From NCBI GenBank assembly GCA_016872725.1, contig VGZC01000016.1, positions 1-64,000 on the forward strand: a DNA stretch of 64,000 nt, given 5' to 3'. The first letter of the stretch is position 1. Every line of letters starts with the position of its first letter. This document shows positions 8,646 to 39,846 of this stretch, one piece after another. Origin of the DNA: Planctomycetota bacterium (GTDB lineage: Bacteria > Planctomycetota > Planctomycetia > Pirellulales > Pirellulaceae). The translations under genes and the position numbers were made by a program. The notes under the pieces were generated by a model. That model ran no database searches and was not told the origin of the DNA. It saw nothing but the letters and a program-made list of their open reading frames with translations.

Positions 8646-11600
8646 TCAATCCAGGAAGAACACCTTCCTCGCCGTACGCGGTGCCGGCCACGCCGCGGAT
8701 TCCCCATCGCCCTTTCGCTCGCCTTCCTCATCCTCATCCTCGTCGGCCGCGTTCCACACGGTGGACCGCGCGTGGGCCGAGTCGATCGCCGCGTTCCGCG
8801 ACATGTCGATCGCGGGGATCGCGAACGATACCGCACGCGACTCGGGCGCCGTACGCGTCGATTCTCCTTCGCCTCCGGGCAGCCTGCGGAGACGGCGGAG
8901 GATGAGCGTTACGTCGGATACGGTCAATCGTCCATCGAAGGTAGGATCGAGATAGGGTGGCGGCCTCCGATTGGCCGGAGGCGGAACGGCCAACAGGCCT
9001 CCTTCTCCCTGGGCCAACCGCCGCAAGAGATGGAAGAGATCCCCCACGACGATACGGCCATCGTCATCGATATCGAGCGGTTCGCGCGGATTGAAGTAGG
9101 GATAGAGATCGGCATTCAAGAACGAGATTTCGATCGGTTCGGTTTCCGTCACATGGCCGCTCACATCGATGGCCCGCGCCTGAATTCGGGTCGTCCTGGC
9201 GGTATACGGAAACTGCGCCTCGCCGTAGTAAATCGCGCCGGCGCCGAAATCCCGCGAACCAAAGTCGTCGACGTGAACAACGGCCCCATCCGCGAGAAAT
9301 TCGACTCGCGCGATCGCGACGTCATCGGTCGCGAAGGCCTCCACGAGGATTTTCTCGCCTTCGATGAATGCGTCGCCATGAATGGGCGCGACGATCTCCA
9401 CGCGCGGCGGCTCATCCGACACGACGTCGAACGACTTGGGGGCGGATGAGCCGACGTTTCCGGCGAGGTCCGTGACTTGGCCGGTCAGCGTGAAGGTGCC
9501 GAGCGGCAGAGGGCGAGGGAACTTGAACACGTCGAAAAACCGCTTGATTGGCAAGAGCTCGGGTTCGAACCGTAGCGTCTCGTCATAGCCCGGTCCGACC
9601 AGCCGCACATCGACCGATCGGATCCCGAGGTTATCTTCCACTTCGAACGCGCCGTCGGGAAAACGCGTATCGCGGTTGATCGCGGCCTGAGTCATCGGAT
9701 CGATGAACCGAGGCGCTTCGAGTGCGTGCAGAATGCCTCCCCCCAGAAAGAACGGCGAACTCGGATCAGACGCTAGCCCTTGCCGTAGGGTGAACTCGAA
9801 CGGATCCCATTCGTCCAATCGGCGGATCCCGACGGTTGTTTCAAACGGGCCTCCCTCAGAGAGCGGATTGGTCTCAATGATCCAAACGTCGGTCGCGCCC
9901 GGCGGAAGGACGGTCGGCGATGGAGGCGGAACGATGGTGAACTCGCTGCCGTTGCCGTTGTCCCACGTGTCGAACGTCACGTACAGGCCGCCCGAGTTAC
10001 GGACGTCGATTTGATAGAGGCCTTCGGGATCGGCGTTGGAGGGAGAGTAGACCGTATCGGGCAAGACGATCGTGGATCCGTTGAGAATCGCGACCGGCGG
10101 CGCGCCGTCGTGCCCCCTGAGCCGGACGCTCAGGTCACCCGCGCGATGAAGACGAATCGCATCGGCCAAGACGGCGAAGTCCGTTAAGATATCGACGAAC
10201 GAATCGACCATCGCGCGGCCATCGAGACCGACCTCGAGACGCCCGACCCGTTCCCATGCGACGCCTCCGGTTACCACGTCATCCGGTGCGACGCGCTGGT
10301 CGACTCGAATGTCGAATGCCGATTCGGACGTCTCGCCATGGAACGGCGCGCTCGACGCGTTCGCGGGGTTCGGCGGCCACGTCGCGTACACCATGTACGA
10401 ACCAGGTTCGAGCCCCAGGAATTCGTAGCTCGCCGAAGAACCGACGGTTCCGCCGACCCACGCGTCGCCGAACGCGCCTCGGCCCGACGCGTTGTTCGCG
10501 AGCGCCCGGGGCGCGAACCCGGTCGCCGAAAAGCCGGGATCGCCGTCGTCGATCACCCACGACCGTCGAACCGGTTCGATCCGAATCGCGTCCGCCGCAA
10601 CATACTGGTCGGCGCCGATGTCGGTCAATTGAACGGTCACGGTATGTCCCGTGACGGAAACGATTGCCAAGTTGCGGAACAGGATGGACTGTCCGTCATC
10701 GGTCGGATCGAACTCGCCGGGATTCTGTTCTTGATTCACGAGTACCGAAGCGACGATGGGACCTCCCGGTCCGCCGTCGCGGATGACGAACGGCGAGTTC
10801 TTCGCGCGATCACCGGCGAATGTCCAGGTCGCCGACACCATGTACTCGCCCGGCGGCACCTGATCGAACGTCCAAGTCGCCGTGTGGCCGGAACCCGACG
10901 CGCTGAATCGCACGTCGCTGTTGTAACCCTGGGTCGTTTGGATGAGTCCAAACCCGTTATCGGAGTATCCCGCGCCGCCGTCGTCGACATACCGGGGCGC
11001 CGCGTTGAATACCTTGACTTCCTCGAAACCATCGACCGTCACGTCGCCGACACCGGGGGATCGTAAGCGCGTGCCGTCGAATTCGACGGGACGGCCTTTC
11101 GCGTCGAAATGCAGCATGTCGGAGCCGGGGCCGCCTTGGACATGTCGCGGAACGGGCGCGAACACCATGTAGAGCGTGTCGTCAAGAGGACCGCCCACGA
11201 AATTCTCCCATTGTCCGAGCAATCGAACGGTATTGCCCGGCGGATCGACGCGTTGGACGGCCGAACTGTCCAAGTCGAGCGAGATGGGCTGGTCGTCCTT
11301 GGCGAAACTGATCGTGTCGTTGCCGTCGGTGTCGGAAAACAGATCGTCGCTGCCCGGTGTCGAGAAGATCGTGTCGTCGCCCGCGCCGCCTTCGACGACA
11401 TCGTCACCCGGGCCATCGTAGATGATGTCGTCGCCGTCACCCGCATCGATCGTGTCGTCGCCGGCGCCGCCGTGAATGAAGTCACCGAGCGGGCTACCGA
11501 CGATGTAGTCGTCGCCGCCGTGGGCGCGGATCCGCGTCGTGGGAACCGCTGCGAGATCGAGGGCGCGCGACCGATCGTTGAAGTCCAAGGAAAGGGTGGT

Positions 11601-12224
11601 CGGGGACGGAGTCGAAAAGACGATCGAATCGACATCGCCCGAACCGTGCACCATCCAAGGCATGTCCGCGAGGTGATAGTCGGCCGTGAAGGCGGCGACA
11701 TTGTCCTCGTTGAACGGGTCGACGTCGTCCTCCGAAACGGTATCGAGGTGGTCGACGACGGCAAGCAGCGAGTAATCCTCGTCGTCCTCGGCAGCCCCCG
11801 CGCCGGGAAGCGGCGAGGCCGCGCCGAGGCTATACACAAGACCGGCAATGGTCATCGCGAGGCCGCTGCCCGAGCGTGTGAAGTACGGGCTGCCGTCGCC
11901 CGCGTCGAATGCCGTATCGGTCGATCGATACACGCCGATTTCAAAGGGACCGATCAGCGCGGGAAAAACGCGGCTGTGGATGAAGCTGATCCGCGACGCG
12001 TCGGAAAGCGACGACGACGACGCGACGGCGACGAGATCCGGATCGCCCTCGTAGACGAAGACGTCGTGCTCGCCATTGGTGTCGACCGCCACGAGATCGC
12101 CGGCACGGCCACGGAACGCGATGATCGAACCGTCCGGCGTCATCGTCTGCTGGAAGCCGACGGACGTTTCATTGGGGCCGTCGTCTCCCGCGTCACCTCC
12201 GCCGATATCGGCCGAGACGAGCGC
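8646..12224 (-). CDS. Giant exported protein, C-terminal part: propeller end, RTX-like repeats, golvesin-like domains, dockerin
   Basis: This frame continues the protein encoded at 12140-13756 after an apparent one-base frameshift near 12224. An internal ATG lies at 12143, but propeller-like sequence (ALVSADIGGGDAGDD, then SIIAFRGRAGDLV) extends upstream of it. Domains in order are: a remaining propeller blade; Gly-Asp-rich RTX/hemolysin-type calcium repeats (about 11490-11300, GGAGDDTIDAGDGDD); two golvesin-C-like beta domains (about 10990-10760 and 10550-10265, opening DDGGAGYSDNGF and DDGDPGFSATGF); Ig-like segments; and a dockerin-type tail with two calcium loops (DIDDDGRIVVGDLFHLLRRL near 9080 and DPTFDGRLTVSDVTLILRRL near 8930). 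It is probably cell-surface or secreted. Confidence 0.85.
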   Translation of the reverse strand, partial: ALVSADIGGGDAGDDGPNETSVGFQQTMTPDGSIIAFRGRAGDLVAVDTNGEHDVFVYEGDPDLVAVASSSSLSDASRISFIHSRVFPALIGPFEIGVYRSTDTAFDAGDGSPYFTRSGSGLAMTIAGLVYSLGAASPLPGAGAAEDDEDYSLLAVVDHLDTVSEDDVDPFNEDNVAAFTADYHLADMPWMVHGSGDVDSIVFSTPSPTTLSLDFNDRSRALDLAAVPTTRIRAHGGDDYIVGSPLGDFIHGGAGDDTIDAGDGDDIIYDGPGDDVVEGGAGDDTIFSTPGSDDLFSDTDGNDTISFAKDDQPISLDLDSSAVQRVDPPGNTVRLLGQWENFVGGPLDDTLYMVFAPVPRHVQGGPGSDMLHFDAKGRPVEFDGTRLRSPGVGDVTVDGFEEVKVFNAAPRYVDDGGAGYSDNGFGLIQTTQGYNSDVRFSASGSGHTATWTFDQVPPGEYMVSATWTFAGDRAKNSPFVIRDGGPGGPIVASVLVNQEQNPGEFDPTDDGQSILFRNLAIVSVTGHTVTVQLTDIGADQYVAADAIRIEPVRRSWVIDDGDPGFSATGFAPRALANNASGRGAFGDAWVGGTVGSSASYEFLGLEPGSYMVYATWPPNPANASSAPFHGETSESAFDIRVDQRVAPDDVVTGGVAWERVGRLEVGLDGRAMVDSFVDILTDFAVLADAIRLHRAGDLSVRLRGHDGAPPVAILNGSTIVLPDTVYSPSNADPEGLYQIDVRNSGGLYVTFDTWDNGNGSEFTIVPPPSPTVLPPGATDVWIIETNPLSEGGPFETTVGIRRLDEWDPFEFTLRQGLASDPSSPFFLGGGILHALEAPRFIDPMTQAAINRDTRFPDGAFEVEDNLGIRSVDVRLVGPGYDETLRFEPELLPIKRFFDVFKFPRPLPLGTFTLTGQVTDLAGNVGSSAPKSFDVVSDEPPRVEIVAPIHGDAFIEGEKILVEAFATDDVAIARVEFLADGAVVHVDDFGSRDFGAGAIYYGEAQFPYTARTTRIQARAIDVSGHVTETEPIEISFLNADLYPYFNPREPLDIDDDGRIVVGDLFHLLRRLAQGEGGLLAVPPPANRRPPPYLDPTFDGRLTVSDVTLILRRLRRLPGGEGESTRTAPESRAVSFAIPAIDMSRNAAIDSAHARSTVWNAADEDEDEEGERKGDGESAAWPAPRTARKVFFLD

Positions 12225-13756
12225 GTGACCCCGGCGGTCAAATCACGGACGTACAGATTCCGTCCGGCGACGGTAAGCCCTGCCGCGAGATCCTCGGCGA
12301 AACTCTCGAACACCACATACCGCCCGTTGCCGCTGATGACCGGATTGATCGATGCGCCGAAAATGCCCGGCGTCGAGCCGATCCCGGACGCCGTGCCGAT
12401 TGCATTGATGCTGACCAGCGCCGTCGTGCCGAAAAGCGTGTCGCGGGCATAGATGTCGGCCACGCCGTTCCCATCGACGACACCGGCGGCGAGCTGGTCC
12501 GGATCGGTGATCAGGTCCGACGCCAGACTTTCGAACGCCACAAAGCGCCCCGTATCGCTGATCGATGGATCCTCCGACGCGCCGCTCCCCGTCTTGCCCA
12601 GCCCGTTCACGCTGATGAGTTCGACCATTCCGCCCGACGCGCTCGCGCGAAAGACATCGAAGGCGAACCCGTTCGTATTCACTCCGGGCGCGGTCAGGTC
12701 GGTCGACGCGCTTTCCCAAACGACATAGCGGCCGTCGGCCGAGAGATCGGGATCGTCCGAATCGGCGTCGCCACCGTCCGTAGCCGCGAAATTGCGGCTC
12801 ACGAGCGTTGTCGTGCCGGTGGTGAAGTTGTGGACGTAGATGTCCTCCTCGGTGCCGACTTCGGCGTCCTTGACGAGATTGTTGGCTTCGCTCACAAACG
12901 CAACAACCGATCCGCTGAGGCTGATATCGGGGGAATGGGAAGCGGGAAGGGGCGAGCCGTTGCCGCCCGAAAGGGTCCCCGTGAAGTCGTCGCTGATCAT
13001 CACGGGGGACGCTCCGCCTCGTGTACCGACCCGGAAGACGTCGGTCGTGAAATTCGCATCGGTGATACCCGCCGCGAAATTGTCGGCGAAACTCGCGAAG
13101 GCGGCCTGCTTGCCGTTCCCCGCGATGCGGGGCCGTGACGTCGCGACACCGTATCCAAAAGGGTCGCCGCCCGATGGCCCGCCAAAAATACCGTCGCCGT
13201 CCCCCAAGCCCGACGCGCCAAGGCTCAGCAATCGCGTCTCCGTCGCGCCCGGTTCGTCGAATACGCCGTCCGAGTCGGTATCCCGGTCGTGCACGTAGAC
13301 ATTGATCGGCGCGTCGATGATGAGCGGAGCGGAGATCAGATCGTCGGCGGAACTGCTGAACGCGACATAGCGCCCGCTTTCGCTGATCGACGGGTCCATC
13401 GACCGGCCGCTCGCCGTCCTGAGCCCAAGCCCGGCCGCGAGGCTGATCGGGATCGTGACGTCGAGGAGGCGGTCCCGCACGAAAACGTCGTTTTCCCCGT
13501 TCGTGTCGACCAGCCCCGCGACCAGGTCGGTCGCCGCGCTTTGGAAGGCCACATGCCGGCCGGTCGCACTGATCGCAGGATTCTCCGCAAGAACGGGAAA
13601 CCCGCTCCCCGCGCTGTCACCGGTCGTATCGATGCTAATGAGTTCGATCCCGGCGAGCAGGCGCCGCGTCTCGAGCATTTCGATTCCATGACCGCAGCGC
13701 CTCCCGCGCTTGGCCGCGCGCCGACGAGCTCGGATTCGGTTCGCGATGAGACGCAT
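12140..13756 (-). CDS. Giant exported protein, N-terminal part: LEPR-like export motif and beta-propeller repeats (frameshifted)
   Basis: The ATG at 13756 follows GGAGG and opens a basic N-terminus leading to MLETRRLLAG, a variant of the LEPR-type motif found at the start of many very large planctomycete exported proteins. At least eight TolB/WD40-like propeller repeats follow, each with a core like DPSISDTGRFVAFESLASDL and a VYVHDR strand. The frame then runs into about 30 unrelated residues (from VTRSSRPIS) and stops at 12140, while the other frame continues the repeat as ALVSADIG. One missing G in the ACGCG run near 12222-12226 would restore a protein of about 1,730 residues. An in-frame GTG or ATG extension beyond 13756 looks non-coding. 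Confidence 0.85.
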   Translation of the reverse strand: MRLIANRIRARRRAAKRGRRCGHGIEMLETRRLLAGIELISIDTTGDSAGSGFPVLAENPAISATGRHVAFQSAATDLVAGLVDTNGENDVFVRDRLLDVTIPISLAAGLGLRTASGRSMDPSISESGRYVAFSSSADDLISAPLIIDAPINVYVHDRDTDSDGVFDEPGATETRLLSLGASGLGDGDGIFGGPSGGDPFGYGVATSRPRIAGNGKQAAFASFADNFAAGITDANFTTDVFRVGTRGGASPVMISDDFTGTLSGGNGSPLPASHSPDISLSGSVVAFVSEANNLVKDAEVGTEEDIYVHNFTTGTTTLVSRNFAATDGGDADSDDPDLSADGRYVVWESASTDLTAPGVNTNGFAFDVFRASASGGMVELISVNGLGKTGSGASEDPSISDTGRFVAFESLASDLITDPDQLAAGVVDGNGVADIYARDTLFGTTALVSINAIGTASGIGSTPGIFGASINPVISGNGRYVVFESFAEDLAAGLTVAGRNLYVRDLTAGVTRSSRPISAEVTRETTAPMKRPSASSRR

Positions 13757-14102
13757 GGCCGACACCTCCGGCGCGCAAGAACCGCGCGAACTCAAAGAGA
13801 CTGACAGGTTTACGACATCCGCGCAGGACGTCCATCGTAGTTGAACGCGGCAAGGGCCGCAAGAAAAAGGCGTGCATTCAGGGCGAGTCCGGCGCGATCG
13901 TTCGCCGTTGCGCCCGCGTCGGCGCTCGAACGTCCCCACTCCCCGCGCTGACACATCGGAGCTCGATGTGGGAACCGCCGACCGAAACCCGACGCGTAGG
14001 CGAGGGGAAACCCGACACCCACGCGGGGCGGCGGAACAACCGGAAAATCCCCTCCAGTTTACCGAACTTCGTGCCGATGATTAGGGACGAAGGAGGCGAA
14101 CC
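13757..14102. other. Divergent intergenic region
   Basis: This stretch of about 350 bases separates the giant exported protein gene from the divergent membrane protein gene. Apart from the two ribosome binding sites at its edges (GGAGG before each start) I see no gene, repeat or clear promoter. Open frames here are arginine-rich shadows. Confidence 0.5.
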
Positions 14103-22300: not shown

Positions 22301-22966
22301 ATGCGAGAGATCCTCGAATCGTGCTTCCGCGGACCGGCGTTCCCCGCTTCCGTCCTGTTGATCCTCGTCGCCCTCTATTGGGTGAGCGTGATCATCGGCG
22401 TATTCGATCTCGACCTCTTCGATATCGACGTGGACGGCGGTGGCGAACCGGACTTCGAGGGGATGCCCGGCATCGGCCTGACGGTGCTCCGCGCGCTCAA
22501 CATCGGGCGGATTCCGATCATGCTCTGGCTGAGCGTCTTCGCCGTCACGTTTTGGTTCGTTTCGTACGTATGGAATCGGCCGGTCTATGTGGAGAGTTCA
22601 TGGCTGGCCTTTCAGATCCTTCTGAGGAACGGAGCGATCGCCCTGGTGGCCACGAAGATCCTGACGCAACCGATGCTGCGCTGGGTGGACCGGACGCGCA
22701 TGACCAGCGCGGTGGATCTCGTCGGTCGGATTTGCGAGATCACGACAAGTGAGGTCAACGCGTCGCGCGGCCAGGCCCGGATCCACACCGACGCGGCGCC
22801 CCTCCTGCTCGACGCGCGCGCGCACGGCGCGCCGCTCGCCAAGGGAGACACGGCACGGATCGTCGAATACGACTCGGTGAAGAACGTCTACTACGTTGAA
22901 AAGACAAAACCGGAGGTGGAGGTATCCCGGTTCTGCACCGCGTCGAGGAAATGGACCTGTCGGTGA
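22301..22966 (+). CDS. YqiJ-like (NfeD-type) membrane protein with abnormal C-terminus
   Basis: The reading frame encodes a membrane protein with helices near residues 16-35 and 65-90. The stretch LNIGRIPIMLWLSVFAVTFW matches the LNIGRLP region of YqiJ, and an OB-fold-like C-terminal part (GRICEITTSEVNASRGQARIHT to KGDTARIVEYDSVKN) follows. YqiJ/NfeD proteins partner with flotillins in membrane microdomain proteins. After about residue 205 (KTKPEVE) the frame runs into the flotillin-like segment in a different frame and ends in a short foreign tail (VSRFCTASRKWTCR). The chosen ATG at 22301 follows GGAGGGG; ATG 22274 and GTG 22232 are alternatives. The end is therefore probably not native. Confidence 0.7.
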   Translation: MREILESCFRGPAFPASVLLILVALYWVSVIIGVFDLDLFDIDVDGGGEPDFEGMPGIGLTVLRALNIGRIPIMLWLSVFAVTFWFVSYVWNRPVYVESSWLAFQILLRNGAIALVATKILTQPMLRWVDRTRMTSAVDLVGRICEITTSEVNASRGQARIHTDAAPLLLDARAHGAPLAKGDTARIVEYDSVKNVYYVEKTKPEVEVSRFCTASRKWTCR

Positions 22967-23292
22967 AACGGATCGAGATCACGCGGCGAGGCGAGGCCGG
23001 GCTGATCTGCAAGGACAACATCCGGGCGGACATCGAGGTCGCCTTTTTTGTGCGAGTGAACAGCACAACCGAGGATATCCAGCAGGTCGCCCAGTCGCTC
23101 GGTTGCCGCCGCGCGTCCGACCGCGAGGCGCTCGTCGAACTCTTCGACGCGAAGTTCTCGGAAGCGCTCAAGACGGTCGGCAAACGGTTTGATTTCGTCG
23201 AACTGTACAACGAGCGGGACCGGTTCAAAGAGGAGATCCTGAGCGTGCTCGGGACCGATCTGAACGGTTACAAGATGGACGACTGCGCGATC
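22903..23292 (+). pseudogene. Internal fragment of a flotillin/YqiK-like SPFH protein
   Basis: Reading in the frame of 22951, the segment gives GGIPVLHRVEEMDLSVKRIEITRRG and then GLICKDNIRADIEVAFFVRVN, ELFDAKFSEALKTVGKRFDFVELYN and GTDLNGYKMDDCAI. These are successive SPFH-domain motifs of YqiK-type flotillins. Both ends are missing: there is no N-terminal membrane anchor before GGIPVLH, and after DDCAI the expected DYLEQT segment and whole coiled-coil C-terminus are replaced by sequence of another protein in another frame. The family call is good. What remains is about 120 of the expected 500 or more residues, so it is a remnant or an assembly join. Confidence 0.75.
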
Positions 23293-23293
23293 C

Positions 23294-24671
23294 GGCCGAG
23301 GCGACCAACGCGGCGGCCCGCGAGGAACTGGAAAAGCTCAATTTGGCGCTCGAGATGGGCGACAACGTCATGCTGTATGTCGACGACATCCAACATTGCC
23401 ACACCGAGTTCCTCCAGAAGTTCATCTCGCTGTGCGACGCGCAGCGCCGGATCGAAGGCGTCTACCGGGGCCGAACGCGAACCTATGACCTGCGCGGCCG
23501 CAAGGTCGCCGTCGTCATGGCGGGCAACCCCTACACCGAATCGGGCGAAATGTTCCAAATCCCCGACATGCTCGCCAACCGGGCCGATGTCTATAACCTC
23601 GGCGAGATCATCGGCGATACGCGCGAGGCGTTCGAGCTGAGCTATCTCGAAAACGCGCTCACCAGCAATGCGACCTTGAACCGCGTGGCGAGCCGGGGAG
23701 CCAACGACATCCACGCGATGATCAAGGCCGCCGAATCCGACACGCGCGACGGGATCGAGGTCGAGGCGAACTACACGGCGGATGAACTGTCCGAGTGCCT
23801 CTCGGTCATCAGGAAGCTCCTTCGGGTGCGCGACGTCGTGCTGCGCGTCAACCGCGAGTATATCCGGTCCGCCGCGCAGTCCGACGATTATCGAACCGAA
23901 CCGCCGTTCAAGTTGCAGGGATCGTATCGCAACATGAACCGCATCGCGGAAAAGGTCGTGCCCGTGATGAACGACGAGGAACTCGACACGCTCATCCTGA
24001 GCAGCTACGAAAACGACGCGCAGACGCTGACCTCGGACACCGAGTCCAACCTGCTCAAGTTCAAGGAGCTCTTCGGCAAGCTGAACGCCGACGAGACGCG
24101 GCGCTGGGAGGAAATCCAAAAAGCGTACCGGCGCAACGTCCGCCTCCGCGGTGTCGGAGGCGACGACTCGGCCGGAATGCTGATCGCCGAATTGGGATCG
24201 CTCGGCGATGCCCTCGAATCGATCGGCGGCGCCGTGGCCGACGGCGTCGCGAGGTCATCGCATCGAGACGCTTCGAGCGATCGAATCGAGCGCGAGGTAG
24301 GTTCGCTTCGCGTGATCGTCGACGAAATGCGAGCGCGGTGGACCGCGCCGGCGCCGCCGGCCGATCCGAACGTCGCCCCCGCGCCGCTTGCCGCCGATCG
24401 CGATGTGGAAATGCAGCGGATCCTCGTGCAACACAAGGTCCCCAAATCGATCTTGGACGTCGTACGTTCGCAGTTCGAACTGATGCGGGGCTGGCTCGAA
24501 CCGCTGCTCGCCGCCGCCGACCGCCAGTCGAGCGAGACCGATCGATTGCGGGCGACGGTCGAGTCGTGCGTCGGAGCGTACGAGCGGCTCGTGCGCGAAC
24601 TCGACGAGGCGAACCGGACCACACGCGCGAGCCCGAAGGCCAAGAAGCAAGACAAGCCGTCGGATCGGTGA
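23294..24671 (+). pseudogene. C-terminal part of a large AAA-type DNA-repair-like ATPase
   Basis: From about 23298 the frame encodes a segment of some 455 residues. It opens EATNAAAREELEKL and then gives the AAA-type core GDNVMLYVDDIQHCHTEFLQKF, RTRTYDLRGRKVAVVMAGNPYTESGE, IPDMLANRADVYNLGE and LSYLENALTSN. These are the Walker B, sensor and arginine-finger regions of the large ATPases annotated as DNA repair ATPases. The N-terminal two-thirds, including Walker A, is absent. The only initiators are internal (TTG 23343). The C-terminal part is helical and ends KAKKQDKPSDR. It joins the flotillin fragment out of frame with no spacer, so it probably cannot be made as a normal protein. Confidence 0.7.
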
Positions 24672-38544: not shown

Positions 38545-39326
38545 TCACGGCTGTCGCCGTCCCGCGTAGATCGGGACTTTGGGCTCGCAGTCGACGACCT
38601 CGTCCCCCCGCCACGTCAGTCGGTACGCGCGGCGGCTCACCGGCATCTCCTCGACGGCCCGTGTCTCGGCCAAGTCGTGCCGCACAACGATCGTCGCGCC
38701 GGGCCGGACTTCGTCCTTGGGAATGACGAGGAACAGGCCGTCCCAACGCGGGGTGGCATCCCGTTCCATGATGGAAAGCCGCACGGAATCGCGCGGAGCC
38801 CAACCCGGTATCCGGATGCGAACCGGCGCGGCGTCCCGCAACACGACGCGCAGTTCGGCGTCGGCCGTCCGCGTGGAACGCACTTGGGCCGCCGTCGTAT
38901 CGATGTCGAGCCCGTTGGATCGATCACGTGCCGCAGATGGGGTTCGGCAATCCGCTTCGCGAGTGTCAAGGCCGACGGGTCGCCCGCGGCCTGATGGAAC
39001 TCCAGGAGCGCCTCGACCGCGCGACCGGTCGACGCCACCGCGCTGAACCACCGACCCGACGGATAACGGGCGATCATCACCGGATCGGCCGTCAAAGGTT
39101 TGCCGGTGCGGACCGCCAGCGCGGCATAGTCCATCTGGCCGTCGGCCTCAAGCGTCTGTTCGATCGTCTCGATGAGCCGGTGTCCTTGGTTTCGAGCCAT
39201 GCCGAGCAGGCAGAGGCAGACCAAGGCTCCTTGGCAAGCCATGGGACGCGGGACAACGACGGTGCGCTGCCGAATCGCCCACCATGCGAACCAACGACGG
39301 ACGATCACGGATGGGAAATCAGCCAT
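38545..39326 (-). pseudogene. Broken glycoside-hydrolase-like gene (GH127/DUF1680-type), internally deleted
   Basis: Two frames on the minus strand hold the two ends of one protein type. From the ATG at 39326 the first gives GHRLIETIEQTLEADGQMDYAALAVRTGKPLTADPVMIARYPSGRWFSAVASTGRAVEALLEFHQ and AKRIAEPHLRHVIDPTG, the N-terminal side of an (alpha/alpha)6 catalytic domain like that of beta-L-arabinofuranosidases. Near 38900-38925 it loses frame. The other frame continues with NGLDIDTTAAQVRSTRTADAEL, RIRIPGWAPRD, a beta-sandwich and a terminal VVDCEPKVPIYAG, then stops at 38545. The central catalytic part, roughly 300 residues, is missing. The family call is tentative. An export signal-like hydrophobic stretch (CQGALVCLCLLGMA) precedes GHRLIE. 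Confidence 0.55.
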
Positions 39327-39351
39327 CAGGGGGACTCGCTTTGTGCAACGG

Positions 39352-39846
39352 TCAACGGCCGCGGATGGGCTCGGCCTTGACGTACAGAGCCTTCGGCGCC
39401 TTCGAGTAGTATTTGAACATGGCCGGACAGATCCAGCCCTCCATGGGAGGATCCTCGAGCGCGTAGTAGTTTCCCCCCGAGTCGCCGCGAAGCCAAGTGA
39501 GTTCCTTCTGGTATCCGGGAAATGGCCTCGCGCTGAACAGCAGACGGAATCCCTGGTCCGCGTTCGGAATCTCCTTGACGAGGACGTCGATCATCTCCGG
39601 GACTCCCGCCACGAACGGTTCCTTGACAAGGCCGGCGGCGCTGTCGTCAAAGACCCACGTGCCGTGATCGCGATACGGGACAATCATCATGATCGCGTTG
39701 TCGCGCGGATTCGGAACGAATCCCGGCAAGAGCCCCCAATACCACGCAACGGCTCCCGCGATCAGTACAAGACCGACGGCGATCGCGGAGAGGCGTCCGA
39801 CGCGCACGACGGGAGGACGCGCGGCGACGACCGATTCCTGGACCAT
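39352..39846 (-). CDS. Small membrane-anchored protein resembling DUF6717
   Basis: The 164-residue protein has a hydrophobic anchor near residues 18-39 (LSAIAVGLVLIAGAVAWYWGLLPGF) and a C-terminal globular part with IMMIVPYRDHGTWVFDDSAAGLVKEPFVAGVPEMIDVLV. That stretch resembles a small family of planctomycete proteins of unknown function that I associate with DUF6717, from memory and without a search. It lies between the squalene-cyclase-like gene and the broken hydrolase gene, all on one strand. The start at 39846 has no clear ribosome binding site, but the downstream sequence is convincingly coding. Confidence 0.72.
   Translation of the reverse strand: MVQESVVAARPPVVRVGRLSAIAVGLVLIAGAVAWYWGLLPGFVPNPRDNAIMMIVPYRDHGTWVFDDSAAGLVKEPFVAGVPEMIDVLVKEIPNADQGFRLLFSARPFPGYQKELTWLRGDSGGNYYALEDPPMEGWICPAMFKYYSKAPKALYVKAEPIRGR

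Follow-up and report, generated by a model that had tools for sequence, protein, structure and literature searches.

In E. coli (YqiJ-YqiK) and B. subtilis (YuaF-FloT), a small membrane protein adjoins a flotillin, and neither pair is known to include an 1800-aa ATPase. YqiJ and YuaF are both named by Ravi et al. 2024 (PMC11237479), who describe an abbreviated PspA-linked operon composed of a Band-7/flotillin protein, a YqiJ/YuaF protein and a coiled-coil/beta-propeller AAA+ ATPase. The role proposed for such operons is in sub-membrane dynamics and the assembly of membrane complexes, sometimes together with PspA (PMC11237479). The intact operon type has thus already been described.

Seven relatives, all of the same family or order, were found to carry an intact trio of genes on one strand, in the order yqiJ, flotillin, DUF3686/AAA ATPase. 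The same three protein types occur in the window (the whole 64,000-nucleotide stretch of planctomycete DNA analysed here), where a preliminary description had considered it plausible that they form one locus; the trio in the relatives bears this out. The proteins of the relatives are ~240 aa (YqiJ), ~720 aa (flotillin) and ~1800 aa (ATPase) long. In the relative G008, the ATPase contains DUF3686, DUF7902 and an AAA domain, the YqiJ protein matches YqiJ_N, and the flotillin matches the FloT model weakly. We infer that the DUF3686 protein is the ATPase of the published operon, and no mention of DUF3686 by name was found in the literature searched. Among named genomes, the best matches were Pirellulaceae/Planctomycetaceae records (51–56% identity), which assigns the window to a planctomycete of this group. 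The family genomes listed for comparison included none from the same genus.

Structure of the remnant locus

The pieces of the operon in the window, and the joins between them, are as follows.

22301–22920, + strand: YqiJ-like membrane protein, nearly complete (tblastn, seven relatives, 30–43% identity over almost the full length)
22921–22924, + strand: join 1, from the end of YqiJ into the interior of flotillin, out of frame (placed by the start of the flotillin alignment)
22924–23292, + strand: SPFH piece of flotillin, residues ~81–202 of the 716-residue G008 frame (tblastn; PF01145 Band_7, E = 1.6e-6)
23289–23292, + strand: join 2, from flotillin into the ATPase, out of frame (abutting tblastn matches)
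23289–24671, + strand: C-terminal quarter of the DUF3686/AAA ATPase with its original stop codon (tblastn; residues 1373–1829 of 1836 in G008)

The YqiJ-like protein starts at the ATG at 22301, and its ORF matches PF21001 (YqiJ_N) with an E-value of 0.00036, just short of the curated cut-off. YqiJ matches end at ~22915 by tblastn, and the flotillin alignment to relatives opens at IPVLHRVEEMDLS, with codon 22924. This agrees with the earlier placement of a frame change near 22915–22925 with loss of the flotillin N-terminus. The YqiJ ORF acquires a short foreign tail and now stops at 22964–22966. Against the seven intact relatives, the flotillin piece shows 57–77% identity (tblastn, E down to 2e-64), and the ATPase match, 23289–24614, shows 54–62% identity (tblastn, seven relatives, E down to 8e-180). 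The end of the SPFH segment had been put at about 23290, with the ATPase following in another frame and without a spacer; the two matches do abut, overlapping by four bases (GATC, 23289–23292) that are common to both sides. An unsupervised coding-frame screen chose the same flotillin/ATPase switch, at 23282. A C-terminal part of the ATPase is present as claimed, although it is a quarter of the protein (457 of 1836 residues) and not a third. Each of the YqiJ, flotillin and ATPase pieces is in a frame of its own, and the reading frame is therefore lost at both joins. All three remnants are adjacent, lie on the same strand and keep the order of the operon, as a remnant of it should.

The amount of missing sequence was measured in four of the seven relatives with an intact trio. 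Compared to these, ~0.2 kb (194–222 bp) is missing at join 1 and ~5.7 kb (5.68–5.82 kb) at join 2, ~5.9 kb in total, which upholds the suggestion that several kilobases are absent. The missing flotillin and ATPase parts were searched for in the rest of the 5.24 Mb assembly, and no match was found. Contigs C10 and C30 of the genome encode two further band-7 proteins. The locus shows three properties expected of a pseudogene formed by deletion: recognisable homology, a destroyed frame, and lost parts that are absent from the assembly.

What is left lacks the parts that a working system would have. In the relatives, the ATPase carries a Walker A motif of the GPPGYGKTT type upstream of the position of join 2. 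The fragment in the window begins past this P-loop, and of the DUF3686, DUF7902 and AAA domain with Walker A of a complete ATPase it holds residues 1373–1829 only. Similarly, a complete flotillin has an N-terminal membrane segment, the SPFH domain and a long C-terminal part; residues ~81–202 of 716 are kept here, with neither membrane anchor nor coiled coil. Judging from the sequence, the operon is very probably dead, and these missing parts suggest that the remnant would be unable to serve in membrane dynamics or complex assembly. Of the three proteins, YqiJ alone could still be produced, and its tail would be altered. Annotation of such loci calls for caution, since a gene caller would report three normal-looking ORFs.

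Real deletions or an assembly fault

The preliminary description offered a deletion cascade or an assembly collapse as causes. Both proved worth weighing as a pair, and the sequence evidence leans to real deletions. We consider it probable that two recent deletions turned the operon of this Pirellulaceae-type planctomycete into pseudogenes. A deletion of ~0.2 kb would have taken the flotillin N-terminus at join 1. At join 2, one of ~5.7 kb would have taken the remainder of flotillin beyond residue 202 together with the spacer and, of the ATPase, the first three quarters. Both would lie in the cell's own DNA and may be products of illegitimate recombination, with 4–5 bp at join 2 as the likely microhomology; conserved residues in the relatives suggest that these 4–5 bp were common to both sides. 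The surviving islands are free of stop codons, and relative-rate counts against G008 did not reveal a consistent excess of substitutions in them. For the ATPase, the counts lean one way with two outgroups (G005, G002) and the opposite way with three others (G006, G013, G023); for flotillin there is no difference. Both deletions must then be recent, unless the damage exists in the assembly only. Two deletions within one locus, without point decay, are somewhat unusual and would equally fit an artefact.

That the operon is intact in the organism, and that the assembly skips two stretches of it owing to chimeric reads, chimeras formed in amplification or a mixture of strains, is an unlikely explanation, though one with several observations on its side. 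Besides the undecayed, stop-free islands and the two clean joins within one locus, the genome is a 100-contig assembly, and a nearby GH127-like gene (below) appears to be cut in a similar way. However, k-mer assemblers do not merge on 4–5 bp, so the short stretch apparently shared by the two sides of join 2 makes a merge of this kind improbable. No other contig carries the missing parts, the operon is often missing from genomes of the family, a second genome (G089) has it broken at different places, and no out-of-frame join was found in 83 ortholog-like genes when an unselected sample of genes from the relative G006 was compared with the genome. The last result indicates that the assembly is not generally collapsed or broken; the same comparison gave one in-frame difference in each direction. 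Far less probable still is a reduced system in which YqiJ with its new tail, a short SPFH protein and a C-terminal ATPase protein are still expressed and useful. Every piece is open and conserved in sequence, and the reduced ORFs begin at an ATG (22951) and a TTG (23343), yet the ATPase piece is without Walker A, the flotillin ORF runs on for more than 100 codons in the wrong frame, and this form was not seen in any relative examined. Two real deletions thus remain our preferred reading.

Religation at restriction sites or Hi-C ligation was also considered, as GATC is found at the joins at 23289 and 38917. This is a weak candidate, because the density of GATC here is 11.5 per kb and the motif is not found at join 1.

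Other joins in the same genome were sought by screens covering 0.85–1.23 Mb of the 5.24 Mb. The coding-frame screen, run on 853 kb at a loose setting, flagged 25 candidate switches, the majority of which proved false when read; it is noisy when used alone, with most matches being ordinary gene starts or intergenic sequence, and it undercounts because it detects out-of-frame joins only. Besides the operon, two joins in the 853 kb were well supported.

C3:159247–159967 (L097 19247–19967), − strand: SelO gene with an out-of-frame join near C3:159640 and ~255 residues missing
window 38563–39359, − strand: GH127-like gene with its middle missing relative to ~600-aa relatives and an out-of-frame join at ~38917

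In the SelO gene, profile positions 70–96 run into 350–465. In the second gene, residues ~209–288 meet ~503–591 of a 600-residue relative, and a large part of the first 200 residues also seems to be gone; it has no Pfam match, and the name GH127-like is our own reading. In prokaryotes, the background fraction of pseudogenes is 1–5% (Liu et al. 2004, PMC522871). A few joins per ~850 kb are in line with this, being at or below that background.

Three other features were observed. What appears to be a small frameshift near 12140–12240 divides a large planctomycete extracellular protein with PD40 repeats, golvesin and RTX-type domains (window 8646–13954, − strand) between two ORFs. At C5:123172–125467 (L104 3172–5467), a possible truncated glycoside-hydrolase-like ORF enters an FGGY kinase gene near C5:123773. 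A short tandem array of STPPA-type repeats lies at C1:172716–172871 (L043 12716–12871), on the 3' side of a predicted gene.

Loss of the operon in the family

A match to the ATPase was found in 155 of 241 family genomes, with the genome studied here counted in. Given that about a third of the family has no match, the locus is dispensable, and the remnant adds to the evidence that this flotillin-ATPase envelope operon is optional in the family. Decay of the locus would have been contradicted by the same junctions occurring intact in relatives, and the window's own junctions were not found in any relative examined.

In one relative from another genus, G089, this operon carries an independent break, with the cuts lying elsewhere.

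contig C484, L192 1856–5787: broken operon with an internal stop and part of flotillin inverted

Here, ATPase residue ~103 is joined to ~1194, so that ~1,090 residues are gone, and there is an internal TAA. No YqiJ match was found at this locus, which comes from an assembly that is fragmented and 8% contaminated. Other relatives with short ATPase frames were considered as carrying further breaks, but nearly all of these frames are cut by contig ends and only G089 is truly broken; the G199 ATPase can be aligned from end to end without a change of frame. It is doubtful, though conceivable, that the family loses this operon repeatedly through internal deletions that take out the greater part of the giant ATPase, as might happen if the ATPase turned costly or harmful once the system was unneeded. 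If this were true, the genome studied here (G000) and G089 would each have captured the process independently. Whether the deletions are real or an assembly fault, the case is ordinary; most likely it is one more dispensable operon caught during loss, and of small importance alone.

Comparison with described systems

Like the E. coli YqiJ-YqiK and B. subtilis YuaF-FloT pairs, the planctomycete trio places a small membrane protein beside a flotillin. It differs from them in the added ATPase and, in the window, in having a flotillin that is only a fragment. With the background pseudogenes of bacteria (Liu et al. 2004, PMC522871), the locus shares the character of a disabled remnant of recognisable, dispensable genes; unlike them, it is probably disabled by large deletions, and the remainder is stop-free. 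The operon of Ravi et al. (PMC11237479) has the same three protein types, which form an intact trio in seven relatives, whereas the copy in the window has probably lost most of its flotillin and ATPase to two deletions.
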